DNA of 64,000 nucleotides from Cladochytrium replicatum (Eukaryota; Chytridiomycota; Chytridiomycetes; Cladochytriales; Cladochytriaceae). Made by a program: the position numbers and the translations under genes. The notes beneath the pieces were generated by a model, which worked only from the letters and a program-made list of their open reading frames with translations, did no database searches and was not told the DNA's origin. Positions 28,862 to 63,554 of the stretch are shown in pieces; position 1 is the stretch's first letter; the number at the start of each line of letters is the position of its first letter. The stretch spans positions 248,001-312,000 of the forward strand of contig JAHLKD010000055.1 in the NCBI GenBank assembly GCA_025526935.1, in the 5' to 3' direction.

Positions 28862-30603
28862 ATGGGTTCTTCTGTTCACCTGAAAGGAATCGAGCTTATG
28901 GAACGGGCAGCCTATTTACTGGAAAAGATCGATGCCTGTGCTAAGATGTATCCCCGTATCGAAGGGATCGGGAAATTCCGCACCGCTGTGAGAGCTGAGC
29001 ATCGTTTTATTGAGAATGTGAGCATTTTGCGAAAATGTTTTGTTTACAAGCTAATTCTTTTTGGTTTTTGAAGCTAGTTTCGACCAACTCCGTTCGATCG
29101 ATGCATCTCGACTGCTCTAACATACCCAACCTGGAAGCTGTTCTGAGTGTTCTTCAGCGTGAGCTCGTGAAATTTCCGCGATCGCCATCTCGTCCAACTC
29201 CTCCCGTGGCAGTATTCAAACCGTTCGCATTCATTCATCAGAGAACGGGAGAACGTGACAGAGTCCGTGTCGATGTTGTCACTGATAGCGGCAGGGTGTG
29301 GATCAAGGTGAAAGCGTCGAGCATGAGGTCCACTGTCGCTGATCTCAATGCGGCTCAAGCAGAAGCTGATGCTGAAGAAGAGGAAAGTGATGACGATGAT
29401 GAATTTGATGATCCGTTCACCAACTCTGAATGGGACGTAGGTCAGAGTGATAGCAGTGATGAAGATGAGAATCTAGGGAGACCTTCGGTTTTCGATGTCG
29501 CAAGACGGCTACTCCATGCTGCGACTCAAAATCTTGTCGCTTACCAAGTACCAGAAGTTCGATTCTGTTTCATCCCACCGTCGGGCGAATCTGCCTTCAA
29601 CCTCGATCAACGGATCATTGACGGCCTGCAGAAAGTTGGTGCAACAATAGAATACGAATCTTACGCAGCTCTTGCATCAACACCGGCAGAGCCTGCGTCT
29701 CCCATAATTCTACTCCCACAGCAATCATCGAATGGGGGCGTTCGTTCCCCTGCACTTCCTCCGCTCGCCTGTCTCGGTAAATGTTCTCCAGCTTCATCAA
29801 TATTCACGGATGTCGTCAACCTCGACGTAACGACACTTGTCCTGCTCGCCTCAGATCTCCTCTATGACCTCTCAAACATTCCGGCAACATCGCTGACTGG
29901 TAACGATGCTCTTACTGCACAATACGAAGCGGAACTCCGTGCCCCGATTCTCCCATTGATCCGATCTACCATGTTCCGCCCTGCTCGTGATGACGACGAA
30001 TCAAACTCTGCAAAAGAACGATGCTCGGTTTGTGGTGTACTACTCGTGCCCCGTCGTGCCGTCGCATGCCAGACCGCTGTCGAGAAATTCCTCTCTATCC
30101 TGGACAAAATTGGAGGCCCGCGCGAAAAAGCCCGAGGTGCATCGTTGTTCGATCTAAGCGATCCTGCGTTAGACATCGGCGGACCACTTTCAGTTCTCCT
30201 TGGTGAAGATCCTCGAAACCTCGAAGGTCGCAACCCGGTTGGTGTGAAAGTCCAAGTTGTACCAGACACACCCTCTCAAGCTTTCCTTGCTCTCACGGGT
30301 AAGAAACTACCTACCTCTCCAAAGATTCAAGACTTCCACATCAAAGTATTTGGAACCGGAAACTCTTTGCTTGCTACAACAATCACAGCGAACACCTGGA
30401 TCTACCGGTCCTACACCGAACAACAGTCGGCGGCGTTGGCGGTTCGCGGGCGTGATATGGGCGAAGCGAAGGAAGGTGGAACAAGTTTGGACCTTTGTGT
30501 TTGGACGCACGATCCTAGGAGCTTGGTGGAGAAAAGGGTCTTTGAGGTCAAAAATGGTACATGGAAGGGTCGGCAAAAGAAAAAACAGGAGGAATCGAGT
30601 TGA
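28862..30603 (+). CDS. C7orf25/UPF0415 homologue (DUF1308)
   Basis: Conserved eukaryotic protein of unclear biochemical role. Exons 28862-29017 and 29074-30603 give 561 residues from the ATG MGSSVHLKGIELMERA. The N-terminal helical part (LLEKIDACAKMYPRIEGIGK, FRTAVRAEHRFIEN) continues after the intron into LVSTNSVRSMHLDCSNIPNL. The DUF1308 core contains RVDVVTDSGRVWIKVKA, an acidic loop (EEEESDDDDEFDDP), NLDVTTLVLLASDLLYDLSN, ACQTAVEKFLSILDKIGGP, VQVVPDTPSQAFLAL and FGTGNSLLATTITANTWIYRS, all in the same order as the human protein. It is longer than human C7orf25 because of the acidic loop and extra Pro/Ser text. Family match is strong; function is not established. Confidence 0.85.
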
Positions 30604-30639: not shown

Positions 30640-30843
30640 GCATAAAACCTACATGAATCTCCAGGCGGTTCTTAACTATCCTCACCTTCGCCATGTTCGT
30701 CTGCATCCTTGCTGCCTTCATCTTCGTCGTCATCGTCGGTATCCTCACTGTCTTCATCGGTATTCTCATAATCTTCAACCTCGATGGTCCACTTCTCCGC
30801 CACCAGTCAAGAACGACCGTGTATCCATTTTCTTTCCGAGCAA
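30640..30843 (-). pseudogene. Frameshifted 3' continuation of the repeat gene with acidic tail
   Basis: Beyond the stop at 30844, reading on the minus strand, the repeat resumes in another frame (NGYTVVLDWWRRSGPS, about 30780-30830). A third frame then gives a highly acidic end (NTDEDSEDTDDDDEDEGSK) closed by a stop near 30675. This looks like the original C-terminus, cut off by two small indels. An acidic tail is not itself proof, but uninterrupted Asp/Glu codons for about 40 codons are unlikely by chance. Confidence 0.45.
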
Positions 30844-32550
30844 TCAAACATCCGGGCTCCATTGCAATTCCAGGCCGCTTGCCAGCCACCAGTCAAGTGA
30901 ATCTGTATACGCGAGCTCAGTTGCCTCGTCCATAGCCCGAGCGGACCACTTCAATTGAAGTCCACTCCTTGTCCACCAGTCGAGCACATCAATATGGCCA
31001 AAGGCGCTCGCACCATCCATAGCACTTTCTGACCACCGTAGTTCCAAACCACTGGCCATCCACCAGTTAAGAACAGATACATGCCCGTTGGAGCTCGCAT
31101 TATCCATTGGCCGGTGATCGTACTGCAGTTCGAGCCCACTGGATCTCCACCATTCAAGAACATCAATGAGCCCCTTTTGGCTGGAATGACGTAGAGCACC
31201 AGTGCTCTCCATAGGCAAACCATTGTCCCTCCACCAATTTAGGACCGGTACGCCAGCATCGTCCAACCTAAGATTCGTCCATTTCATTTCCTCGCCGCCT
31301 TCTTTCCACCATTCGAGTACTGCCACGTGGCCCCCACTGATCGCCTCACCAATCGGATTCCTAAACTTCATCTCGAGTCCGCTCTGCTTCCACCAATCTA
31401 GAACGGAAATATGCCCGTTCTTGCTTGCTCCATCCAATGCGTCTGAGCTCCAGCGCAGTTCCAGACCACTTGAATTCCACCAGTTAAGTACGTTGATATG
31501 ACCTTTCTCACTTGCGCCGTCCATGGCCTGATGACTCCAATTCAGCTCTAGTCCACTGGACCTCCACCAGTCAAGAACCATGATATGACCGCTGGAGCTT
31601 GCCCAATCCATCGCCCTTTCAGACAGAATCAAGGGAAGTCCAGATGATTTCCACCAATCGAGAATATGGACGTGTCCCTCTGAACTTGCCGCAGCGAGTC
31701 CGAACTCGATGTACTTCATCTCGAGTCCGCTGTCGCGCCACCAGTTCAAGACTTTGATGTGACCGTTTCTCCCGGCGTTATCCATTGCTCTAAAGCTCCA
31801 CTTGAGATCCAGCCCACTCGAAAGCCACCAATCGAGGACTTCTACATGGCCATACTCGCTAGCCTCATTCATCGCGCGTTCAGAAAAGTCAAGCTGAAAT
31901 CCGCTCGATTCCCACCATTCTAGAACGTCTAAATGAGCGTTCTTGCTCGCATCGTCCAAAGCATACTCGGTCCAACGCAAATCGAGCCCATTTGAAGACC
32001 ACCATTCGAGAACGTCAATATGGCCGTTCTTACTGGCATGATCCATCGCCAGCTCATACTTTAACGGCAACCCGCTGTTCAACCACCAATCAAGAACCTC
32101 GATGTGCCCCATCTCGCTCGCCTTGTCCATCGCGTCTTCCGAATACCACATCTTAAGCCCACTTCTCTTCCACCACTCGAGAACTTTAACGTGGCCGTTC
32201 TTACAGGCCAGTTCCACCGCAAGAGTGTTGTATTTGAGACTCAGTCCGCTCGTCAACCACCAATCGAGAACATGGACATGGCCCTTCCCACTTGCAGAAT
32301 TGAGCGCGTTTACAGTGCATCGACATCGAGAGGTGTGCTTTAGATGGAGTTCCAATGGATCGATTAAGCCTCTCGCGCTGGCATTGTCCATGGAAATGAT
32401 GTGGTGGATGAGAAGACTTTGTACGTGCCCTCGTCGCAGAGAGGTTGCAGCTTGGAAAGCCAGACGTGGACAGCCAGCCCATTCTGCGAGGGCTACCAGA
32501 ATAGAATCGATCAATTCGAGCGAAAGAGAAGGACAGCGGGCCATAGTCAT
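30844..32550 (-). CDS. 17-unit WW-repeat protein with F-box-like N-terminus
   Basis: Intronless frame. The start is placed at the ATG at 32550 (MTMARCPSLSLELIDSILVA); another in-frame ATG lies at 32637. The N-terminus LSLELIDSILVALAEWAG followed by AFQAATSLRR resembles an F-box-like helix. From about 32300 to the stop there are 17 units of about 29 residues, with consensus GH-x-x-VLDWW-x-x-SGL-x-LKWS-x-x-AMD-x-AS-x-N; the first starts GHVHVLDWWLTSGL. Unit 13 is shortened, and units 5 and 17 lose the GH pair. The pattern suggests ankyrin-like helix pairs with an unusual WW signature. It could be a substrate-binding platform for a ubiquitin ligase if the F-box reading is right; that is inference. 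Family function unknown. Confidence 0.75.
   Translation of the reverse strand: MTMARCPSLSLELIDSILVALAEWAGCPRLAFQAATSLRRGHVQSLLIHHIISMDNASARGLIDPLELHLKHTSRCRCTVNALNSASGKGHVHVLDWWLTSGLSLKYNTLAVELACKNGHVKVLEWWKRSGLKMWYSEDAMDKASEMGHIEVLDWWLNSGLPLKYELAMDHASKNGHIDVLEWWSSNGLDLRWTEYALDDASKNAHLDVLEWWESSGFQLDFSERAMNEASEYGHVEVLDWWLSSGLDLKWSFRAMDNAGRNGHIKVLNWWRDSGLEMKYIEFGLAAASSEGHVHILDWWKSSGLPLILSERAMDWASSSGHIMVLDWWRSSGLELNWSHQAMDGASEKGHINVLNWWNSSGLELRWSSDALDGASKNGHISVLDWWKQSGLEMKFRNPIGEAISGGHVAVLEWWKEGGEEMKWTNLRLDDAGVPVLNWWRDNGLPMESTGALRHSSQKGLIDVLEWWRSSGLELQYDHRPMDNASSNGHVSVLNWWMASGLELRWSESAMDGASAFGHIDVLDWWTRSGLQLKWSARAMDEATELAYTDSLDWWLASGLELQWSPDV
30850..32310 (-). repeat. Tandem array of 17 degenerate 87-nt coding repeats
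   Basis: Protein-coding tandem repeat, period about 87 nt (29 codons), inside the repeat gene. Units have diverged at the nucleotide level, but Trp-Trp, Gly-Leu and Ala-Met-Asp positions are strongly kept, so selection rather than recent amplification maintains the array. Confidence 0.8.
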
Positions 32551-32648: not shown

Positions 32649-33140
32649 TCATACTACTATTTGCGTACCATGTCCACTTCGGGTCCAGTAAACTTTGTTT
32701 CCACATCTCAAGAACATCGAGTCTACCCCTCTGCTTTGCATAATGAATTGCATTTCCGCTCCAACCCGCTCTCCCCGGCTTGCCAAATCTATTATCAATC
32801 TAAATCCAGGCCGCTCACTTTCCGACCGCTCGTCAAATTTCAACCCCGTCCACCGCCTTTCCACCATGGAGTGCTTCTCGCTGACCCACATCGCTGCGGA
32901 CGTTCTGTACTTGATAGCAAGACTACTTTCTTTCCATCAATTCAAAACATCCAGATGACCATGCTTTGTTGCTTCGTTGATGGAGTAGATGTCCATCACA
33001 AATCCAGACCGCTCGACGTGGCCATTCGTGCTTGCTTTGTCCTAAATCCAAGACATGGACGAGACCGCGCTCGCTGGCTTCGTCCACAGAAAATATGCTT
33101 GTGGACCAGCTTCTTGGTAACACTCAACCCTGAAATCCAA
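32649..33140 (-). pseudogene. Relic of a WW-repeat protein
   Basis: Minus-strand fragments of the repeat family in several frames, such as SVDEASERGLVHVLDLG near 33080, HLDVLN near 32945, and repeat-like text near 32700. Stops and frame changes interrupt every unit. It lies just upstream of the long repeat gene in the same orientation, so it is probably a decayed tandem copy. Confidence 0.55.
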
Positions 33141-33497: not shown

Positions 33498-34854
33498 TTA
33501 GGCAAAACAAACCGCAACGACAGCTGCAAAGAGAGTCGCAAACAACGAAACAATGGCCCTAGGCTGAGCGGCGGATGACAGGTACGCAGAGTCCTTGTCA
33601 CCAGCGGGTGAGGGGGTGGTTTCACCTTCCACCTCTCCGGGAGTGGTCTCGTAGCTACCGTAGCCGCCGTAGCCTGCGCCAGAGGGAGTAGAGTCACCGC
33701 CCTCGACTGTCGCAGTCCCTTCGCACGGGGAGGTCGTTCGAGAGGGAGTGGTCTCTCCCCCTTGGACTTCACCGGTGGTCGCGTATCCGCCTTCGGGGTG
33801 GGCACCGCCGGCGGGGGTCGAGTTCTCACCTTCGACTTCGCCGGGGGTGGAGGTTTCGCAGGGGATCGTGGCGGGAGCGGTGGTCTCAACTCCGCTGACA
33901 TTGGGGGTGCTGGTAGCGTAGCCGCCAGCGGGGGTCGAGTCACCGCCTTGAACTGTTCCGGTGGGGGTGGTTGCGACAGTAGTGGTGGTGCAGGGAGTAG
34001 AGTCACCTCCTTGAACTGTACCAGGCGAAGTGGTTGCGACAGTAGTGGTGGTGCAGGGAGTAGAAGTATCGACGGTGGGCGTACCAGTGGGACTGGACAC
34101 CGGAGTGGACACCGCTGTGGTTGTGCATGGAGATGAAGTGGAAGTTCGGGCCATAGAAGTAGCGCCGGCCGAGGTGACCGCAGTCACGGTGGTCACAGAC
34201 GACGAGGGTAACGACGAAGTCGCGGCAGTAGCGGAGGACGACGAGACGACGGCTGAGGTGGTGGTGGCCGCAGAGGACGAGGGCACCGCCGACGTGGTAG
34301 TTGTGGTGGTCACAGACGACGAGGGGAACGCCGAGGTAGCCGAGGAAGACGGAATTTCCGAAGTGGGGGTGATCGAAGAAGCTGGGACAGAAGTGGTGGT
34401 AGTGGTAGTGGGCGACGCCTCCAATGTTGTGGTCGTAGTGGTGACCGGCACATCTGTAGTGGTCGTAGTGGTGACCGGCACATCTGTAGTGGTCGTAGTC
34501 GTAGTAGTGGTGGTGACAACCTCCGAGGTGGGCACAGTGGTAGTGGTGGTGGTGGTCACCGGCGGGATGGAGGTGATGGTAGCAGGGGGAGCTTTACAAT
34601 TGATATTAGCCTTCTTGTCCCAACAAAGGCAGTCACAAATACATACCATCACCAGGGTACGTAGCAGGCGGGCTGGGGTCAACCGGGCAAGTGCTAGGGA
34701 ATACGACTGCTTGGCGACGGAAAAACTGGCGATAAGAAGGTTGTAAGCTTTAGAACACGCAATGCACCGGTTAAGTACGTACGATAGGCGAGGCGTTAGC
34801 CTGGACTGCAGCGAGCACGATTGCCACGAGCGGGGCGATGACCGAGGAGCGCAT
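33498..34854 (-). CDS. Secreted mucin-like GPI-anchored wall protein
   Basis: Three exons (34854-34783, 34725-34647, 34591-33498) give 414 residues. Exon 1 encodes a signal peptide (MRSSVIAPLVAIVLAAVQA, then NASPI). The mature protein opens with a short Cys/Pro segment (RRQAVVFPSTCPVDPSPPA). It is then almost entirely Thr/Ser/Val/Pro: long Thr runs (about 34330-34570), imperfect repeats around TTTTVATT and TVQGGDSTP, and Gly/Tyr/Glu-rich text. The C-terminus AIVSLFATLFAAVVAVCFA is a hydrophobic tail typical of GPI attachment. Dense potential O-glycosylation suggests a wall or surface adhesin. There is no catalytic domain. The repeats are prone to length variation. Confidence 0.8.
33520..34570 (-). 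repeat. Thr/Ser-rich low-complexity coding repeats
   Basis: Within the mucin-like gene. Includes two near-identical 24-27-nt units encoding TTTTTTDVPV near 34440-34510 and repeated GGDST and TPCTTTTV blocks near 33930-34060. Such tracts usually vary in copy number between strains. Confidence 0.7.
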
Positions 34855-36600
34855 GTTGCAGTCAGTTGTATAGGATTCTAAAAGAGTAGGTATTCAAATG
34901 CGCTGAAGCAGTGGTTCCAGTAGGAAGAGCCGTGGATCGAGAGATAAAATTTGGAATAAAACAATGTTGGGCGAAAATTTGTGTTTTAGATAAAATATTA
35001 CTTGAAGGGTTTCATTCTGTAGATAATATGTGAAGTTGTAAAGCTAGTAAAGTCAAGTAGAAGTCACCGAGCTTTGAAATCAGCTACTTTAGTTTGGATT
35101 CACTCCGGTATCATTGCATCTCAAATTAAAGCATTTCTGGTACATCAGACTTTGTCCGCTCAATAACATGATGAATCTTGGCATTCGTGTGCTGGTGCAC
35201 ATTTGGGCATTCAGAATGTTCCTGACATTTTATTCATAGTGATGGTACACCTTGCGTTACTGAGTTTCCTTTTATCTGCTTCAATTGTCCAAGATGTTGT
35301 AGTTATTCTTGATAAATTTAGGGGGCAAGTTATGAAGTTCTGGTTCCTCAATCAGAGAGTAACTCACAATTCTCATCAATCTCTATGAGTTCTTGGAGCC
35401 TTTGAAAGGACAACATCATCTGTCAAGAGTGGCTGTCAATTGTACCGACTCCGGTTGATTACCTGCTGCTGTCCTTAAATTGCTTAGAGGACACCAATTT
35501 GAAAGCTATGCTTCTTCATCTATACGTCAGTATTGTCTAAGATAACTGCTTGATGCTGCCCGATTCTTTGTCACCCACCACCAAAAATGGAGGAAAGCAT
35601 TCTTCATGGTATGAAGGCGCAGCTTGTTTGAAACTATGTTTGTGACCTCAAGAGTCAGGGAAAGTTTAGTGATACCAGGGAAGTATGAGATTATTTGTGA
35701 AATATAGCTCTATCCTGGGATCAATGAAGGGGTCTTGAGGTTTGAACTGCTGCGATTCATTGGAGAGAAGAGCAAAGCAGATTTATGGAAGTAGCAAATC
35801 AGGATCAACAGCTCAGGCCACCATTTGAGAACCTTGGAATATGCCTAATCTTGCTTGCCTTGTCCAGCTGTGTTAGTCCAGGATTCAGTCCACTTGAATC
35901 CCACTATTCTGTGTCTACTCTCACCTGCGCATTCAACTACAGAATATCTGTAGAGCAAAGTGGTTGTCTTTGAACATCATGATCCGGTAGTTCTTGACGT
36001 TATACAAGAAAGGCAACCCAACATGAGAAAAGCAACCTTGAACTAGCATGACCAAACAAATAGTCAAAACCTGGTTTGGTATTTAGAGATGTGGCCCAAA
36101 TGAATTGTCAGGACTGATTTGGTAGAAATGTGGGAACATTCTTAAGTCCTACCAAACTAGTTGCACCAAAGGACTGGCAAGCCTCGAGAAAACTTGACAT
36201 CCACCAAATCACTTTTTCTTGCGTGCCCACACCACTTCACGGGTCAGCTAGAGTTTGAAAAACCGCAGAAACCCTGGGTCCGTCCATATATGCAACATGT
36301 CATTTAACCCACAGAAGTATCTATTCTGTCTACATCCACAAACTCTACATAATTTAAAAATCTATGTCAAACACATCTTATTCAACGTCAGCTTCAATGT
36401 CAGTGAGACAGGTTGCCTTCCTACATCAATGTACCCCATTTCGCTCTGCTGGAAGACTCATTGTGATTCAAAGCCACGGTCCAACGACTACCCAAGCGAG
36501 ATCACACAAGTGCTCCACTTCATTTCCAACCCACTGGACTTGCACTGATTGTCCACATTGAAAGCTCTGTATTCACTCTGAGTCTGGCTGAATAGCCCTC
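34855..36600. other. 1.75-kb gene-free AT-rich stretch
   Basis: Short open stretches only, rich in stops on both strands. No domain, terminal repeat or RNA gene recognised. The text after 36240 may be old mobile-element debris, but no diagnostic motif was found. Confidence 0.35.
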
Positions 36601-36621
36601 ATATGCCTTTGGATTCGGAGT

Positions 36622-37216
36622 TCAATAGATCAAAGGGGCCAAGTGCGCCGGTGTCGTCCATGGAGATAGTGTGGCATATGGACAATTCGAGATGAGGATA
36701 TTGTCAATGATCTCTGGTTTTTGCTGAGAAAGCAGGTCAGTGATGAATTTGGTCTCAACAAGCGTGGTGACGACTTTATAAAGCGAATAATCAAATATTA
36801 AGGCAGCTTTACTCCCACCATTTGACAACCTCAGGTTGCGCCAACGCAATTTCACTGGCTGTCCACTCTAGTTCGAGACCACTCCCTTTCCGCTACTCAT
36901 GAATCTCTATGTGATCATTTTTTGGTTGCATGATCATTTTTGGTTGCATAATCCAACGCAGATTTACTCCATTTTAGCACCAGTCAACTCTCCTTCCACC
37001 ATTCAAGGACTCTTACATGTCTATTCCGACTTGCCATATTGATCGCCTCGCAAGACCAATGCAAATTCCTGGAAGCTCTCTTTCTGGCCACCATTCGAAG
37101 ACCCAAAAGTGCCCATCCTCGCTCGCCCAATCCATTGCGTCGAAGGTCCACATTAATTCAAGAAACCACTGGAGAAAATGAACATGACCGTTCAAGCATG
37201 CATAATCCAGGATCAC
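36622..37216 (-). pseudogene. Relic of a WW-repeat protein
   Basis: Minus-strand fragments: LNGHVHFLQWFLELMWTFDAM and DWASEDGHFWVFEWWP (about 37085-37195) match two consecutive repeat units, and SGLELEWTASEIALAQPEVV (about 36830-36890) a third in another frame. Stops separate them. Same family as the 17-unit gene. Confidence 0.6.
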
Positions 37217-51221: not shown

Positions 51222-51948
51222 GTATATCCAACTCCCACAACACCGATTCACTACATTATTCATCAGCGGCATCCAGCACTATGCCAAGCTCTGCTTCAGT
51301 AAAATTCGCCAACAGCGACGACTTGTCAGAAAGAAGATCATTCTTTTCAATGTTCACCTTGAATGGGTATCAGCAGCTAGTCGCATTGCTTGCCGTTGTC
51401 ATGTTTGGGTTCCTACTACTCTCTCTGCAGTTGATTTAATAAGCGATTCCGTTTCACTGGATACCACCTGAATACGTTATCGGGAACTATGAAGGAAAAC
51501 TCACAGATACCGGCACTGACTACAGCTGGGACCATAAGTCAATGTTGATCACTGGAAATAATCTTCACTGCGGAAGGAAACTATGCTTGAATCTTTAACA
51601 ATTTCTTTTTTTTCATTATTTATTACTCACCTGTTTTTTTGGCACCTTGGCAGTATCTGACGGATAGCTACAGGTTTGAGTTAACTTTCTCTGTTTTTCT
51701 TTGTTGCTTTTCCTTATGCTGCGCGCTGTTGGTATTTCCTCATCATCGTCATTATGTGGTCATATGCAACAAAAGAAAGTGGAGAACATAACCAAGAAAA
51801 ACAAGGTCAAAAATTACACACTGAACCACAAAAACGTTCCGAAGATGATTTTAAACTTGCTGAAGCAATGTCAGAAATCAGGCATAAGAAAGCGTCTGCA
51901 AAGACGGATGTTTCACCCCCTGAGAGCTGAGATTTTTTATTGAGAAAA
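51222..51948 (+). other. Possible gag-like remnant after the LTR elements
   Basis: The frame 51281-51439 reads MPSSASVKFANSDDLSERRS and then FTLNGYQQLVALLAVVM, loosely like the N-terminal part of Ty1/copia gag (Leu-x-Gly-x-Asn-Tyr-x-x-Trp), though the Trp is absent and the frame stops soon. Downstream text is broken. No protease, integrase or reverse transcriptase motif was seen. Weak. Confidence 0.25.
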
Positions 51949-52827
51949 TCACCCTATTTTCCCCCTTCCGAGTCCTTTTTGCAGAGGACGACGTGTACTG
52001 TTCCGAGTCCTTCTCGCAGAAGTTGGCGAGGAGATGCTCTCGTGCGATAAACGGGTGTTGTTCCGAGTCCTTCTCGCAGATGATGACGAGGTGGACTGGT
52101 TTTCGCTCGATAAACGGGGCGTTCGTCCAGGCGACATAGTTCCTGAAAGTCCGGCTTGAAAGCAGGATCGAGCGGCAGATCGAACAAGCCCTCGGACTGA
52201 TTCCATTGATTGCAAGTCCAAACCGCTCTCTTCCCACCACCACTGGCCTTTCTCCACCGCGCATTTGATTGCAGCCGGCGCATCATAGGTCACAGGCAGT
52301 CCGGATTCCATCCACCAACGGAGGACTTCTACATGACCATTTTGGCTCGCAATAGTCATGACCTTTTCGATGTGTACAAAAAAAAAAAAATGGGTAATAA
52401 GACAGTACTCCATCCAAGGGATCTTCTTTGGTACGAAGTGATTATTGGATTCCCACGACACAATGACAAAACAATATCAGAGGTTAGTGGTGCTGAGAAT
52501 TGCACGCTCTCCGTTTACAAAACTTCCAATCTCCAGTGAAAGCAAGGTCCTCGTGCCCGCGAACACTGTGGTGTCAAGTGCTCGCAATGCAGCTGCCCAC
52601 TTCCACCAAATAACTGGCAATACTTTGATTGGGAGAACAATCTTCAGCTGAAGGTGTTTTATGACGAACGCGGCGACATGAAAATCATCAAAGTACGCGA
52701 GACCACCGATCGGAAGGGAATAATGTTCTATAGCTGCATCGATTGCCTCCGAATCAAACACTGGGAGAGGTACAAGTAATTGCGGATGTTTGCTGTCGGG
52801 GTCGCAGAGCTGTATTCGAGGGACCAT
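51949..52827 (-). CDS. Short WW-repeat family protein with tandem-repeat C-terminus
   Basis: The ATG at 52827 (MVPRIQLCDPDSKHPQLLVP) begins an open frame to about 52477. An intron, not precisely placed, would connect it to the frame ending at 51949. The second part has one clear repeat unit, IASQNGHVEVLRWWMESGLP, then a degraded unit, WWWEESGLDLQS. The C-terminus is Ser/Arg-rich and built from a DNA tandem repeat (SARRTRNNTR, SARRTRNSTR). The run of A/T near 52378-52391 encodes Phe if translated, but is more likely intronic. It may be an active short gene or an early-stage relic. Confidence 0.45.
51966..52095. repeat. Imperfect tandem repeat, 60-bp period
   Basis: The block TTCCGAGTCCTTCTCGCAGA starts at 52001 and 52061 (60 bp apart), with a degraded copy at 51966. 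A second shared block, GATAAACGGG, follows at both full units. Lies in the C-terminal coding part of the short WW-repeat gene. Confidence 0.75.
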
Positions 52828-55302: not shown

Positions 55303-57474
55303 TTGTCCAGATATTAAATAACGATGATTCGAAAGGTGTGGTCGATCCTCAAGCAGTACCGGCCGACGTGAGCCTGGGTTTCACTGGGTAGGTGTGCCTT
55401 CGTCGCGTCTTGGATGGCAGACGTCAGCACAGGGTATTTATTAAAAGATTACAATGTTGTAAACTGTAAAAGAAAATGGAACCAGGTAGAAATTTGGGGA
55501 CAGATGATTGATGACATGTTTTAATAATGAAGATCAACTATCATGAGATCTAATTCTGTTTTCTGCTTTGAGTTCCCGTAAAATTCATGGCAAAGAGCAG
55601 TTCTGAATCTGGAATGCATTTGCTTTGGCTGTAGTTGGTGCGACAATCCAGAAGATTTTCCTAGCTCACAATGAAACGTCCATTCAATCTTAGCACCCTA
55701 TCGGAAAGACGAAACTCTTTGGAGACGCAGTTGCTTGCCCAAGCACCAAAGTTGCCGAGTTCATTATTTCTCACAATCAATACTGTATTACTGTGCCGAA
55801 GAGTTGGAGGAATCATTGCACATATCTATCGAGTGGAATAATGCTCCAACACTCAGCCCTTCTTTGACCACGGTATCATTCAATTACTTAATTTGAACAA
55901 AGAATTGGAGTGTGCAATCTATGCTGAAAATCACAAGTTAGTGCTTCAGCTTGTTGATTTAGCATGTTGGGCAAATTTCCAATTCTGCTTATATGTTAGC
56001 CAATTTTAGTGAACAGTGTTATTGATGTTCAGCTTTAGATGGCACCAGAGTTCAAGCCCACCTTCTCTCATACATTAAAGCTTTAAAGCTGACAAAAGAG
56101 GGCATCAGATACAGTTCTTCCTGCTTTCAAATTGCCCATCGATTCCAGTGACATCACTGAATCAGTATCTTGAAAAGGCTGTAGAAGCAATCAACTATCC
56201 GGTTGCTGATATGCTTCTAAGTAGAGGATGTAAATATATGGAAGCAGACTCTGCCTAGTATGAAGATAAGACAAAGAATACTTGATTACCTCAATTTTTT
56301 AGCAGTCTTTGCCAATTATGGGTACACTTATAGAGAACTTGAGAAGGAAATATCAACCAATGTCAATGTATCACTATTGCATCAGTTAGCTTGGAATAAA
56401 TGGAAAGCATAACACAAAATCCCTTTTGCCTCGTGAGATTTTGGATGATATTAAAAGAAGGCTTGCTTACAATGATGCCACATGCCTTGAGTTGACATAT
56501 CTTCACTAGTATAAGAATGTCATACACAAAAGTCAATATTATTTATGCTCAAAATGTCAATGAATCATCAGTACTGAGTAGCGTCTCTTGAGATCGTGCC
56601 AAATTTGTTTCAGACACCTTACTTTAACGTGGAAATAGAAGCTGACCTTATTATCAGCATTGCATCATTTGCTGGACGCTAGAAAATGAGCAGTTTCCCG
56701 TTGTTGAGATTGCAATACCCCTCAATCTCACAAAGCTAAATTTCTGCGTTTTTAATAAACTCACATTTGACAAGAGGTGTTATGTTAGTCAATTTTGGAT
56801 GAAATTATAGCTTCGTTTAACAACCAACAAGTCTGTTCAGAAACTTCTTTCAATAGTGCTCTTTAGCAATTTTGATACACGAGATGGTTTTGAAACATAC
56901 TTGATGGATATTTGGTATGCGAGTTTCAAAGTTCAGCATTTGTCAACTGCAAAGAGATCTTTGCGAAGAAATTTGTCCCATCTTCTTGACACTGATGATG
57001 GGATTATATAGTCCCCTTCATGATAGAAAACTTTGCTAAGTGGAAATGATGTTGAGTCATGAACTGCCACGTTTTGGCATTTTGCTATTTTCATGTTTGT
57101 TTTAAGATGTCAACTTACAGATGTTTTTTGCAATCTTCTGCTCCGTCGGTTGTTACATGTGTTTCTTCTCTCTACTGGTTTGTTTGCTAAAGTGTGGTAT
57201 GCTCCCAGTTCTTCTCGTTATTTTTGTTCTGTTTATAAAGAATTCAAACCAAACAGTTGAATGTAAGAGGTATCTTGAAGAAAAGTACTTCGAAGTACTG
57301 CTACATGGCCATCTGCGGATGAGGAATTGATTGCCAGTGGGGAATATTTTAAGGCACACACCATGTAGGTCAAGGATACGTGTCAGTGGTTGAGTGCATG
57401 GCATTTTGCAACCTGCGAGTTTCGAACCTCCACCCCCCCTCACATCCACCCCCAACACCTCGTGCCCAGTTCCG
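55303..57474. other. 2.2-kb gene-free AT-rich region
   Basis: Stops are frequent in all frames. One plus-strand stretch (KSLLPREILDDIKRRLAYND, about 56418-56480) and a hydrophobic stretch at 57121-57240 stand out, but neither belongs to a recognised family. Probably decayed sequence plus the F-box gene promoter. Confidence 0.35.
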
Positions 57475-59163
57475 ATGGTCGTCTTGGCCTCACACCCGCA
57501 CCTCCTGCACGAACTGTTCAGGGCAATCGTCGATTCAACTGCTGGACCACCTCAGGTAGCTCAATCCTCAACTGGAATTATCTCTTGCTAATGCATGATC
57601 CATAACTCTGCAGTTCCAGCGCAAGGATCTCATTTCCTGCAGCCTTGTGTGCAAGACATGGGCCTCCTATGCCCTCCCCATCCTCTGGCGCGACAGCGTG
57701 CACCTCCGTATCCTCAATGAGAACAGTCGAAGGCTCAGACAGCTGGTGGCGATTGACTCTGATAAGCAGACAGAGCGTCTGATCGACCTGCTCTTGAACC
57801 CCAAAGGTGATTTTGGTTGTTACTTGTGAGAGAACTGATTTCAATGGCTAATTATTGGGATTCATTAGTGGAGCGTTCGCTGTTTGATTACACGAGTTTT
57901 ATAAGGACCGTGGTGATAGAGATTGGGTTCCCTGGACGACAGCCGCAATCGTCCATGCTCAATCTCTTGCGCAATACCGTGGCTGCTGTGCAGATCCTTG
58001 CTTTGCACAACAATAACAGTAACGTTCGCTCTGGTGTAACGACAGTTAAACTGGTCTTGCATCCACAGTACCCCTCCGAAGAATTCATGGACCTTTTCTG
58101 GACTCTCATCGCGGCTATTCCGACCCTTCGATATCTCCGCAGCGTGAAGATCGAGCTGAGAGAACACTTGGAGCCCGGGACCGCCTCGAAACTCATCGAC
58201 ACTCTCTGTGCAAACGAAGCCCCCGCCTTCAGAATCTCGGAACTGAAGCTGCTGGGATCGACCGAAGTCCACCCCGTCGGAGAGAGCTCTGTCGTGCCCC
58301 CGCGCGAATTCGAACGCATCGTGCGCACCGTGATCTCTTCCGGATGCGAGTTCCTTGTCGTGCGCGGCCAAGCCGTCGAAACACGTCCGGACATGTGGTG
58401 GACCCCGCCGAAAGCACCCATCATCGTGCGCACGGACGAGGAACTCGAGCAGATCCCGGAATTTGAGACATCCAGCTTGCGGAGACTGTGGATCGAGGGG
58501 GTGTCGCTTGCGCGCGGGGTGTTCGAGGTTCATGTGTCACCGAACGATTCGGCGCGGTTTTTGGCGGGATTGAAAGAACTCAGACTGGTCAATACTGTTT
58601 TCGCAGACGACGAGATGGTCTCGAATACGCTTGCAGGGACGTTGAGGAATGTTGAGAGGCTGGTTGTTTCGGCGCCTAGGACGAGGAGAGCGATTCCCTC
58701 CGGGGCGGGGATCACGAGAGTGCGCTGGCCAAAGATTCGAAAACTTGATCTGTCGTCGACGGAGTTTGGAGCGTCACCGCCGTTCTTCAAGGCACTTGAA
58801 TCGTGCAGTGTGCTGGAATCCGTTCTGTTGCGATCAGTCGAGAACCTTACGGATGAGTGTGTTGAGGCTCTTGTCGACGCGATCGGGAAACTTTCCTTGC
58901 GGGAGCTCGATCTTTCGGGTTGCAGGAAACTCACTTCTCGATCGGGATGGGCGATATCGACATCTGCGCCGTTGCTTGTGTGGATTAGTGTGCAATTCAC
59001 GGGAATCCTTGGCGATGACGATGCTGTGGAGATCCTCAGGGCGTGGGCGGAATGTTCTGTGTTTGAGGACGTACGGTGTGATCCGGATCCTCGCTTCTTG
59101 ACTTATGTCAACACTGACCCAGGGATCATATCCCTGGATAAAGTGCGTAAGTCGCTCGAATAG
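57475..59163 (+). CDS. F-box/LRR protein
   Basis: Substrate adaptor of an SCF ubiquitin ligase. Exons 57475-57555, 57614-57806 and 57869-59163 give 522 residues from the first in-frame ATG (MVVLASHPHLLHELFRAIVD). The F-box spans residues about 5-50: HPHLLHELFRAIV, then DLISCSLVCKTWASYALPIL followed by WRDSV. Residues from about 90 to the end form leucine-rich repeats: TLRYLRSVKIEL, ISELKLLGS, LKELRLVN, IRKLDLSSTEFG, LRELDLSGCRKLTS. These resemble AMN1/GRR1-like cysteine-containing units only in the last ones. A target cannot be named. The LRR exon is GC-rich relative to the flanks. Confidence 0.75.
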
Positions 59164-60339
59164 TGTTATTAATACGATAACGGTAGTATTCTCTTCACAA
59201 TTATGGATGTCAGCGCCAAACATCTATCAGTCTCCCTCAACTAGATTTGGTTGCTGCTCGGGGGATGGGGAAGAGGTCCCAAACTCGCGGACCCGGCGTC
59301 AGTGGTGGAGTCCCGATGTGCAGTGTAGCTCGTTCGGTCATGGAAAATGATTGCTGCAAGGATGACAAATATGGCAAGCAAGTTTTAATAAGGTGCCCAG
59401 TTATGGAACTTCCTAAATGGCACGATCAGCGAAGCTATGTTGGATCATGAACAGTATATCTGCTGTCAAACATCAGACAGTACTTAAAAAAATCGAGCAC
59501 TCTCATGTGAAAAACTCCTCGGCACTCCAAAAAGATTCCAAATTATGTGCATCGAGAGAAGTCAAGTGTCATATTTCCTTTACTGAGCAATTTTGTGTTT
59601 CTGTTCCCATACGTCGACGTTGCCTCCAGAACTCATCGACAAGATCCTGTTGCAGCTCAGTCGGCGTGGAAAGGACGGCATGCTCGCATTCCAAGCAGCG
59701 TCGTTCCTGAGGAAGAGGCTGGTCTGAAGGATGAAGTCTTGTTCTCTTTTCAAAGTTAGCATGGCGTTGAAACCGAAGAAGCTATTCTATCAGACCGCGT
59801 CTGGTTTGGTTCTGCCGTTCAGAAATAACAAAACATTATTTTTCATTCTTCCTCGGCCACACAGAAACTGAAACTGTCAACGAATTGCAGTCGCCTGCAA
59901 TCTCTCATACTCCTAGCTGTGTCCCGAACTACTGGGCTCCTGATGAGTTTATGTTTCTTCCGAATCCGTGATCCACAGCGCCGCGTCTTCCTTCTACACG
60001 AACGATTATTGGGTGCACGTGGGAACTCTCCGTTTGGCTCACTCTCAAAAGGTCAACATCAATATTGTAATAAATTATGCGGAAAGCAGTTGGTGGCACA
60101 TTCAAGGCTTCATTACGCTGATAAACGTTGATGTCTCACTCGATCAGCCATAAACGCCATAATACACGTCTGCGGGATGCCTTCGAGGGTGGCTCCCTTT
60201 CTCGACTGGATAAAAGGCGGAACGATTTTGCGTATTATCTTCATCAAAGTTCCTGTCAATCCAAGAAACTTCAGTGCTCTTCAAATCGGACCATCTCCTT
60301 GATTCCTCAACATCCTCACCAAGTTGAACACCTATCACT
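59164..60339. other. Intergenic region holding a repeat-family N-terminal relic
   Basis: Apart from the relic at about 59617-59720, listed separately, no coding sequence is recognised. The WSC gene promoter should lie at the right end. Confidence 0.4.
59617..59720 (+). pseudogene. F-box-like N-terminus relic of the WW-repeat family
   Basis: Reads LPPELIDKILLQLSRRGKDG, then MLAFQAASFLRKRLV, then a stop. This parallels LSLELIDSILVALAEWAG and LAFQAATSLRRGHV at the start of the 17-unit gene, so it is probably the first exon or a fragment of a lost family member. No repeats follow directly. Confidence 0.5.
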
Positions 60340-61100: not shown

Positions 61101-61359
61101 TAATCGTCATTGGAACACCGCCCGAGAGTCAATTAACACATGATATATGACAGCGTCTTTTGAAATCAGAGTTCATCTTGTTTTGTGCTTTTGGGTCTTT
61201 TTGTTGAAGGCAGGTTTGTTTGAACAAATATTCTATCCCGTTTCTTCTGCTTGGAGAGGAGATATCGTCTATTGCTATTCAATATATGCTTCTTCGTTGT
61301 GCCATGAGACGATGGGATGGCTGTTACTTGACCTGGTGGAACCTCCATATCAAATCATC

Positions 61360-61760
61360 GCGGCCATTGATTTACACACCGACGCAGCCATATTCTTAAC
61401 GGACACCTCGACGTGCTCCGATGGTGCAAAAGACAGCGGTCTCGAAGTCAAGTGGACCTTTAAAAAAATGCTATGAACACAAGGCCCTTCAAAATGGTCA
61501 GTCAAGTTCCTAGAGTGGTGGCGTCAAAATGGGCTTGAGCTCAAGGAGCCGCTTTTCGTTGGACTTTGCGAGCGAAAATTGGCACTTTGACGTCTTGGAG
61601 TGATGTGTGTCGCTGCTGGTCTCGAGCTTGAATGGAGCGATTTTGCACTTCGGCGTGCGCGAATGAACCTTCATGTTCGAGTGGTGGAGTGTTGTGCAAT
61701 TTTGGCTGGACAGGTTGTTGTGCTCCGGTGGGTCAAGAATACAGTGTGTTGAGCATGCGC
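61360..61760 (+). pseudogene. Relic of WW-repeat units (plus strand)
   Basis: Fragments in shifting frames: HLDVLRWCK near 61407, SGLEVKWTFKKML near 61436, LEWWRQNGLELKE near 61510, and GLELEWSDFALRRARMN near 61618 followed by HVRVVECC and a stop. The order and spacing match three to four successive repeat units with indels. Confidence 0.6.
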
Positions 61761-61954
61761 ATGGCGAGTGGAGCCGGGGTGCTCCTTGACGAAAGGAGTA
61801 AGGTCGTAGACCTAAAGGATTGCAATTGGGAGAGATGTTAATAGACATGGAGATTAGAGCATAACGATTCACGTACGGTGCGGTGGATAGCGACCCAGCA
61901 GCCCGCCAGTGTGGCATGCTTCGCGAGTTCCTCCAAAGACAGGATTTTTGCCAT
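61671..61954 (-). pseudogene. Truncated cytochrome b5-domain gene
   Basis: The ATG at 61954 gives MAKILSLEELAKHATLAGCW followed by VAIHRT. An intron (61812-61876, GTACGT..TAG) then joins VYDLTPFVKEHPG. This is the first half of a cytochrome b5 fold, including the first haem-ligand His in HPG. After that the frame runs 33 codons through sequence that, on the plus strand, is clearly a WW-repeat relic, and stops at 61671. The second half of the fold with its second His is therefore missing. The intact splice and start suggest recent truncation. Could have belonged to a fatty-acid hydroxylase or flavocytochrome b2-type gene. Confidence 0.55.
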
Positions 61955-62110
61955 GATGATGATGATATGATGAGTAAAGAATCTCACTAAACGTTTGACA
62001 ACATGCCATCACTTGGTAAATTTGATACTCGGGAGAATTCAGCCGATTGAGAAACGTTCATCATTGTTGCATGGAGCTTTCAAGGCAACCAATTAACTGG
62101 AAAGTCTGTT

Positions 62111-62610
62111 TCACAAGAGAAATACATCGAGCTCGTCAATTAGCTGTAGAACGGCGGTGTGGTTGTTCTCGCTTTTGCGCAGTTGAGCGCCCCAGTGCGT
62201 CCATTTGAGCTCGAGGCCGCTTTGGAGCCACCAGTTCAGCATTTTGATGTGGCCGAAGTCCCTCACTTCGTCGAGAGAGTATGTAGAGTACTGCGATTCG
62301 AAGCAGCTGTCTTTCCACCATTGCTGTACTGGTGTGCTGCCTTCCATGCCCGTGCTGTGGTGCGGCTCGAGACGGCTCTCTGTCCACCATTGGAGGACTG
62401 CGGGGTTGGATTCTTTGCCCATTGCGAAGACTTCGACGTGCATCAGTGGTAGAAAGACAGCCCAGTCAAACACGATCGCCTCGATGGCCTCGCCTGGTGA
62501 AAACACAGTGGAATGAGCCTCTGTTGGACAGCACGTCTTGCTGGCAAGATCTCATTGCTGACGAGTTCCATTGCAAGTCAAGACCAGAGCTTTTCCACTA
62601 ACAGAGGACC
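62111..62610 (-). pseudogene. Relic of a WW-repeat protein (minus strand)
   Basis: Open from about 62506 to 62111 with degraded units: PAVLQWWTESRLE, TPVQQWWKDSCFESQYS, FGHIKMLNWWLQSGLELKWT. A further unit, WKSSGLDLQWNSSAMRS, lies upstream in another frame at about 62545-62600. The GH and AMD positions are largely lost. Likely non-functional. Confidence 0.5.
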
Positions 62611-62614
62611 TCTA

Positions 62615-63554
62615 CGCCGAGGATCAGCAAGATGGGGTGGATCATGGTGGAATGAAAGCAGCATTCATTTCACACATTTGCGAATTGCTTAAAGCCATCA
62701 GAAAGCGAGTTTGTGGATCACACAGAGCACACAGACCAAACACTGCTTGCAAAACGACTCTGTTTTTTAACACCTAGATGTTTTTCTTAAAAAAGTCCCC
62801 ACTCGCCAGCCACCTCCCAAAAATCGCCAGTCTCGGTGAGTGCAACAAATTCACGGCAAAACCAGGGCATAGCTGACCTGTTTTCAGGTGGGAAGACTCA
62901 ACCCCCGTCGCGAAAGGCAAGTAGTGCTTGGTGCTCACCCTACGATCGTGGATTTCTCCTTGAATTGCTATTGCGCGCACACTCCACCTCGATCGCTCGC
63001 CATTTCAGTTTTCTGCTCTGTATTCCTTTGCGATAATGGAATATATCGTTTTGGGCAGATGAATCTCCCGCTCTTTCATTTCCCTTTTTCAACCCTACAC
63101 ACTCGAAATTGGCCGATTACGGACGGCTGTAATTGGAGGATTGAAATAGGAGGGAAAGAAAAGAAAATGGAAAGGTTAATGTGCGAATTGTTGTTATACC
63201 GACAAAAGACTGGAATAGTAGGAATGGGAAGATACTTTGAAAAAACAGAAATGGGTTTGCCATTGTCCTTGGGGAATCGATGAGATGGAAATTCGCTGGA
63301 TAAGTTGCTTCGAGATGCGCGAGCGAGACGACCGCTATGGCCATGAAGGGAGCAGGATTCCGGTCTGGGAAGTACGTATGCTATCTTCGGAGAAAAAGAG
63401 AAGAAAACATGAAGCTAAAAGTTCAAAAACTCGAAGAAAAAAGTTCCATTTTTAGATTAATAGAAAAGAGCAGGGGTCTGTTTATTTTCTTGGGCGTGAA
63501 TTTGATTACTTCTGCTTCGTTATATAATTGTTCTCAACCACTTGCTTTGTAGTA
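62615..63554. other. Intergenic, promoter region of PAB2
   Basis: No gene recognised; purine-rich between 63140 and 63460. Confidence 0.35.

Follow-up and report, generated by a model that had tools for sequence, protein, structure and literature searches.

What does a chytrid fungus do with a large family of proteins built from a repeat that carries two adjacent tryptophans (WW)? The question is raised by a stretch of 64,000 nucleotides of the Cladochytrium replicatum genome (hereafter the window), which holds an intact gene of this family at 30844-32550. We propose that the family supplies ubiquitin ligases with a repertoire of substrate receptors, a reading suggested by sequence comparison that we hold with about as much confidence as doubt. 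Why a chytrid should have 150 or more copies from a single receptor-like family is a functional puzzle, and if the N-terminal domain of these proteins is an F-box, their number would be very large for a fungal set of ubiquitin-ligase receptors.

The intact gene and its repeat units

An initial annotation of the window, made from its letters alone, had described a 17-unit open frame at this position with a unit of 29 residues. Both points were borne out: the frame is intact over 568 codons, its protein (P0001) carries 17 WW anchors, and 12 of the 16 spacings between them measure 29 residues, with 28 residues in three and 25 in one. All of the loci named in that annotation were real; one of the points to be corrected is the strand, as the array lies on the minus strand. 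The unit consensus is approximately xxGH[IV]xVL[DE]WWxxSGLxLKWSxxAMDxAS. Residues 396-456 are degenerate, with mostly low model confidence; because of this, and because an 18th unit lies out of frame, erosion of this copy may have begun. The protein itself was absent from the best 120 of 1046 matches listed, the closest of which was only 42% identical, and it therefore seems to be unannotated.

Against Pfam, the protein scored 97.9 bits for Ank_4 (cut-off 22.7) and 30.2 bits for Ank_2 (cut-off 27.3), and an Ank_4 match at E values up to 1 was present in 37 of 37 C. replicatum members. The structure prediction suggested in the annotation was run and gave a solenoid of stacked, ankyrin-type helix pairs, which matches the Espin ankyrin domain. 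In the predicted model, DSSP assigned no strand, the loop between repeats was shorter, and the Trp-Trp pair lay in the second helix. These scores and this model confirm the earlier description of ankyrin-type helix pairs with a fixed Trp-Trp. The classical ankyrin unit has 33 residues, a TPLH motif and a hairpin turn, a combination that the family units do not show. The annotation had added that the family would be nothing special if its units scored as ordinary ankyrin repeats with TPLH and the copy number was low; the Pfam cut-offs for ankyrin are indeed exceeded, but TPLH is absent and the copy number is high. By sequence and predicted structure, the WW units are ankyrin repeats of a distinct subclass, a variant form because of their 29-residue period, AMDxAS motif, shorter loop and lack of a strand. 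We found no description of the WW repeat in the literature searched, in which subscription papers are poorly covered, and we do not claim its absence in print. As an ankyrin module of reduced length, the 29-residue repeat may be of interest for protein design.

The N-terminal domain as a candidate F-box

Each complete protein starts with a short domain of helices, which may be a diverged F-box, and continues as a solenoid of 29-residue WW ankyrin repeats. In the proposed mechanism, the repeats are predicted to form a curved rod, on which seven variable positions per unit, judged by sequence variability, would make up the ligand-binding face. The N-terminal domain would dock this rod on Skp1 and a cullin ligase, and each member would bring a different protein to ubiquitin ligation. 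A less probable account is that these ankyrin proteins act as scaffolds or adaptors and have nothing to do with ubiquitin; the N-terminal helices would then only cap the solenoid, and the partners would belong to signalling or cell architecture.

The N-terminal domain comprised three helices in both predicted models (predicted local distance difference test, pLDDT, 86.9 in one of them). It starts with LPxE..IxxIL..L, as F-boxes do, and a simple pattern for this start found the domain in 35 of 48 fetched frames and also in P0001. We then compared profiles with 13 F-boxes of the C. replicatum genome, a set that contains near-duplicates, as do the 44 C. replicatum rows. In 27 of 27 unpicked chytrid relatives, the residues that precede the first unit matched the F-boxes at 67.8%, with a score of 28.1 (best of 60 shuffles, 10.2), and 14 rows picked by eye for an LPxE-like start matched at 91.5%. 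The negative controls, Blastocladiomycota and megaviruses, each gave 0.1%. The same 27 chytrid stretches matched the C. replicatum N-terminal domain at 97.0%. Among ten hand-picked relatives, none matched the Pfam F-box models above cut-off and two matched below it. In addition, the relative P0149 carries six units (three with WW) and a C-terminal RING-H2 finger, and by its sequence it is a separate link between the WW repeat and ubiquitin ligation. These matches, well above shuffles and with clean controls, the two matches below cut-off and the RING-H2 relative all argue against a plain scaffold.

Several results weigh against an F-box and leave room for the scaffold account. The C. replicatum N-termini themselves matched the F-boxes at only 9.7%, with a score of 16.9 (best shuffle 14.9), and those of Zopfochytrium alone at 12.3%, with a score of 19.4 (best shuffle 11.8). 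Pfam F-box models matched none of the 37 C. replicatum members at E values up to 1, and none of the 136 F-box-like matches in the genome started within 300 bases of any of 150 N-terminal domains. The window's copy has Ser at residue 10, a position at which nearly all family members have Pro. When the N-terminal model was used for a fold search, there was no significant match and no F-box among those listed, a result that excludes nothing, and the RING-H2 case is that of a single protein. The residues that directly follow the domain also resemble a repeat (MDxASARGxVxxLDLHL), as the scaffold account would have it. With N-termini cut longer, so as to reach the first repeat, the match to the ankyrin profile was 30.7% over 11 columns. 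Residues 5-80, used as the query of a protein search, gave no match, yet the search also missed P0002, a known C. replicatum member whose N-terminus is read exactly from locus L028, and is thus blind rather than negative. Our reading, held with moderate confidence, is that the N-terminal domain is shared among chytrids and is a diverged F-box.

Copy number in the genome

The annotation had recommended counting copies in the genome. A strict DNA motif for GHxxVLxWW occurred 697 times in the 50.5-Mb genome (reversed control, 1), and a looser WWxxSGx motif 1582 times (control, 4). A search for the N-terminal domain yielded 290 candidates, of which 150 were scored; all 150 matched, the weakest at 1.8e-9. 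Each complete gene examined has one such domain. The genome thus holds no fewer than 150 domain copies, whole or broken, and this count together with the motifs substantiates the claim of a large family. The further claim, a strong expansion within the window, holds insofar as the window has 14 strict WW motifs against a genome-wide 0.9 per 64 kb, but 13 of these 14 lie in one intact array.

The 150 domain copies were spread over 74 contigs and were clustered: 21 of 76 gaps between neighbours were below 10 kb, against 4.3 expected and a maximum of 12 in 2000 random placements (contig ends ignored). Contigs C1-C10 hold just 10 of the 150 copies, contig sizes being unweighted, which is only a hint that the family is biased away from large contigs. 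Two loci with long arrays, L009 on C38 and L041 on C14, have frames of 879 and 842 residues that are 60% identical. Roughly 1 kb downstream of each, at C38:148120-148251 and at C14:447818-447949, lies an F-box-like match that stays below cut-off (22.5 bits), an arrangement suggestive of an old segmental duplication.

Clustering and relics could also come from passive amplification of sequences with little function, for example as passengers of mobile elements. One C. replicatum member, P0135, points the same way with a copia-type gag match near the C-terminus of its WW ankyrin protein (Retrotran_gag_2, 1.7e-6), possibly an element insertion or an annotation fusion. We consider this explanation very improbable: 94 of the 150 domain copies sit in open frames that are 300 residues or longer, and between the sampled frames synonymous sites are saturated while the protein is conserved.

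Relatives in other organisms and giant viruses

Relatives were taken from two listings, the best 120 of 1046 and 120 of 347 matches. Among the matches listed, chytrids were represented by Cladochytrium, Zopfochytrium, Nowakowskiella, Rhizophlyctis, Geranomyces, Gaertneriomyces, Obelidium and Entophlyctis, Blastocladiomycota by Catenaria, Allomyces and Blastocladiella, and basidiomycetes by Botryobasidium only. The giant viruses listed were Megavirus, Moumouvirus and Cotonvirus, found by protein searches only, with at least three WW ankyrin proteins in Megavirus baoshan. By eye, an N-terminus of the viral type was present in many relatives outside this named set.

A motif scan of bacteria and archaea, with one genome per species and a pattern that matched 157 times in 40 family loci, returned 23 loci; in 22 of them no more than one unit reached 12 bits, and thus they hold no array. 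The 23rd, L094 (NYXK01000106.1, titled Deltaproteobacteria), has five units, an LPPE-type stretch and fungal-looking genes; we rejected it as a bacterial member on account of these genes, which make it probably fungal contamination in the assembly. The same pattern found three loci in IMG/VR, none with a unit of 12 bits or more. An earlier IMG/VR scan gave six loci, in four of which one lone unit scored 12 to 15 bits, and a protein-based scan with P0029 confirmed nothing.

The viral proteins raise the idea that the family serves to recognise intruders such as giant viruses, with host and viral WW-repeat proteins competing for the same ligands and copies turning over in an arms race. The size of the family, its clustering and its relics would suit this idea, which we nevertheless regard as unlikely. 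The viral members are without the N-terminal domain (12 megavirus stretches matched that of C. replicatum at 0.5%). Megavirus, Moumouvirus and Cotonvirus infect amoebae, and we know of no infection of C. replicatum by any of them. The shared repeat also offers a concrete way to study how giant viruses and zoosporic fungi exchange genes.

Age of the family and selection

Across 584 units, entropy was about 4.1 bits at positions 23 and 27, with positions 22, 1, 2, 6 and 13 next, and 0.2-0.4 bits at L8, W10 and W11; designed ankyrins are the basis for supposing that such variable positions face the ligand. Rates of nonsynonymous (dN) and synonymous (dS) substitution were then estimated in pairs of frames, sampled from those that ranked highest for likeness to P0001, a choice that leans to intact genes. 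Only the pair L034/L042 had a usable dS (1.0), with a dN of 0.066 and a dN/dS of 0.07; at the seven variable positions, dN/dS was no higher (0.05, dS 1.7). In the other three pairs, dS was at least 1.8, near or past saturation, and the overall ratios were 0.08 to 0.15. Their dN was 0.38, 0.60 and 0.65 at the variable positions versus 0.11, 0.19 and 0.26 in the framework, that is, 2.5 to 3.5 times higher. Because dS is near or past saturation in these three pairs, the faster change is, as far as one can tell, weaker constraint rather than established positive selection. The annotation had proposed looking for positive selection at surface positions; none was seen in the four pairs, three of which had dS near or past saturation. 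The low ratio in the one pair with usable dS and the saturated paralogues speak against an arms race.

For P0001 and the four paralogues tried, dS was past saturation in all, and no ratio was obtainable. Residues 391-460 of P0001 were 34% identical to L009 (55% for residues 81-390), 39% to L032 and 50% to L042, a likeness reduced to L009 and L032 and not to L042.

When 44 long frames were compared in 946 pairs, the proportion of synonymous differences (pS) had a median of 0.78. A pS below 0.5 was seen in only one of the eight pairs with the most similar proteins, a recent tandem pair on C63 (pS 0.006; proportion of nonsynonymous differences, pN, 0.004; ratio 0.8) that is too alike to be informative. 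The initial annotation had read the window as birth-and-death evolution. Births and deaths over the long term are visible in the clustering and relics, but fast turnover was not borne out. These findings indicate that the family is old, with sampled members kept under constraint and with some tandem births and relics. The sampled copies, being old and conserved, point to many distinct, stable targets, not to an arms race. A bolder picture, which we consider unlikely, is that a class of ankyrin repeats without a hairpin is private to zoosporic fungi and giant viruses of the mimivirus type, that Cladochytrium uses it in at least 150 cullin-ligase receptors with long-kept specificities, and that the viral versions mimic or jam these receptors.

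Relics and neighbouring genes in the window

As the annotation had advised, a hidden Markov model (HMM) was built from the 17 units of the array. It scored at least 12 bits 28 times in the window and never in 20 shuffled windows (best shuffle 9.2). The search for further loci used a wider unit HMM, a second HMM for the N-terminal domain, and 49 family proteins as tblastn queries; with these two models, the best scores in the 20 shuffled windows were 12.9 bits for the unit and 14.3 bits for the N-terminal domain. The results are collected in the table. Family sequence was present in all six further loci that had been listed, one of which (59617-59720) is an N-terminal domain and not a repeat unit. 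That the copies are mostly broken was also right, as the window's other copies are broken pieces by HMM and tblastn. When the cluster at 61276-62782 was joined, tblastn gave 1.7e-32.

Table. Family features in the window (positions on the window)
Feature	Position	Strand	Details
Intact family gene	30844..32550	minus	ATG start, 568 codons without inner stop
N-terminal domain, residues 1-52	32395..32550	minus	three helices in predicted models; possibly F-box-like, via profile comparison through other chytrids
WW-unit array, residues 88-568	30847..32289	minus	17 units
18th-unit remnant	30788..30832	minus	other frame, just past stop codon; unit HMM 23.5 bits
Decayed relative	32649..33140	minus	unit 24.7 bits at 32662-32733; N-terminal domain 20.5 bits, pieces 33043-33099 and 32940-33008
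Decayed relative	36503..37192	minus	unit pieces in several frames; best unit 24.4 bits; tblastn 1.6e-17
Decayed relative	51892..52767	minus	unit 35.6 bits at 52282-52344; tblastn 5.5e-11
Marginal trace of further relative	57236..57448	minus	tblastn 0.011; unit 7-8 bits, within chance range
Orphan N-terminal-domain piece, no WW unit	59614..59724	plus	37.1 bits; tblastn 4.5e-5
Decayed relative	61285..61790	plus	best unit 20.5 bits; tblastn 2.8e-10
Decayed relative	62192..62597	minus (opposite to neighbour at 61.3-61.8 kb)	unit 36.4 bits

Other genes lie among these features. On the plus strand, an F-box-like match above the Pfam cut-off (27.1 bits, partial model) at 57617-57694 (C55:305617-305694) adjoins a frame at 57811-59163, whose 450 residues gave a leucine-rich repeat match below cut-off; judged by sequence, match and frame are perhaps an ordinary F-box/leucine-rich repeat gene near the ankyrin relics. 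Beside the intact ankyrin gene, a 459-residue Ser/Thr-rich, mucin-like frame with tandem repeats and no Pfam match occupies 33498-34877 on the minus strand. A DUF1308 gene at 29014-30603 on the plus strand stands tail to tail with the ankyrin gene.

Comparison with known systems

The family resembles the ankyrin repeats of Pfam Ank_4 and Ank_2 in its stacked helix pairs and its scores above the curated cut-offs, and its GHxxVLxWW aligns with GHxxIVxVLL of designed ankyrin repeats. It differs from the classical repeat in a unit of 29 rather than 33 residues, in AMDxAS where the classical repeat has TPLHLAA, in SGLxLKW in place of the GADVNA turn, and in the Trp-Trp of helix two and a model without strand. 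Megavirus, Moumouvirus and Cotonvirus ankyrin proteins share the WW unit, with Trp at the two positions in 86% and 89% of 128 units and a commonest spacing of 29, and giant-virus ankyrin models head the viral fold search; their N-termini, by eye, are of another kind.

With the cellular F-box proteins of the C. replicatum genome, the family may share the LPxE..IxxIL..L start, judged by profile in the versions of other chytrids, but no member scanned has a Pfam F-box above cut-off. Poxvirus ankyrin proteins, in which truncated F-boxes still bind Skp1 (PMC4353913), offer a precedent. The C. replicatum family may resemble these ANK/F-box (PRANC) proteins in joining an ankyrin array to a candidate F-box-like docking domain, a likeness of architecture. 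The order is the reverse: PRANC proteins have the array N-terminal and the F-box C-terminal, whereas P0001 and the 35 fetched frames that match the start pattern carry the candidate domain at the N-terminus.
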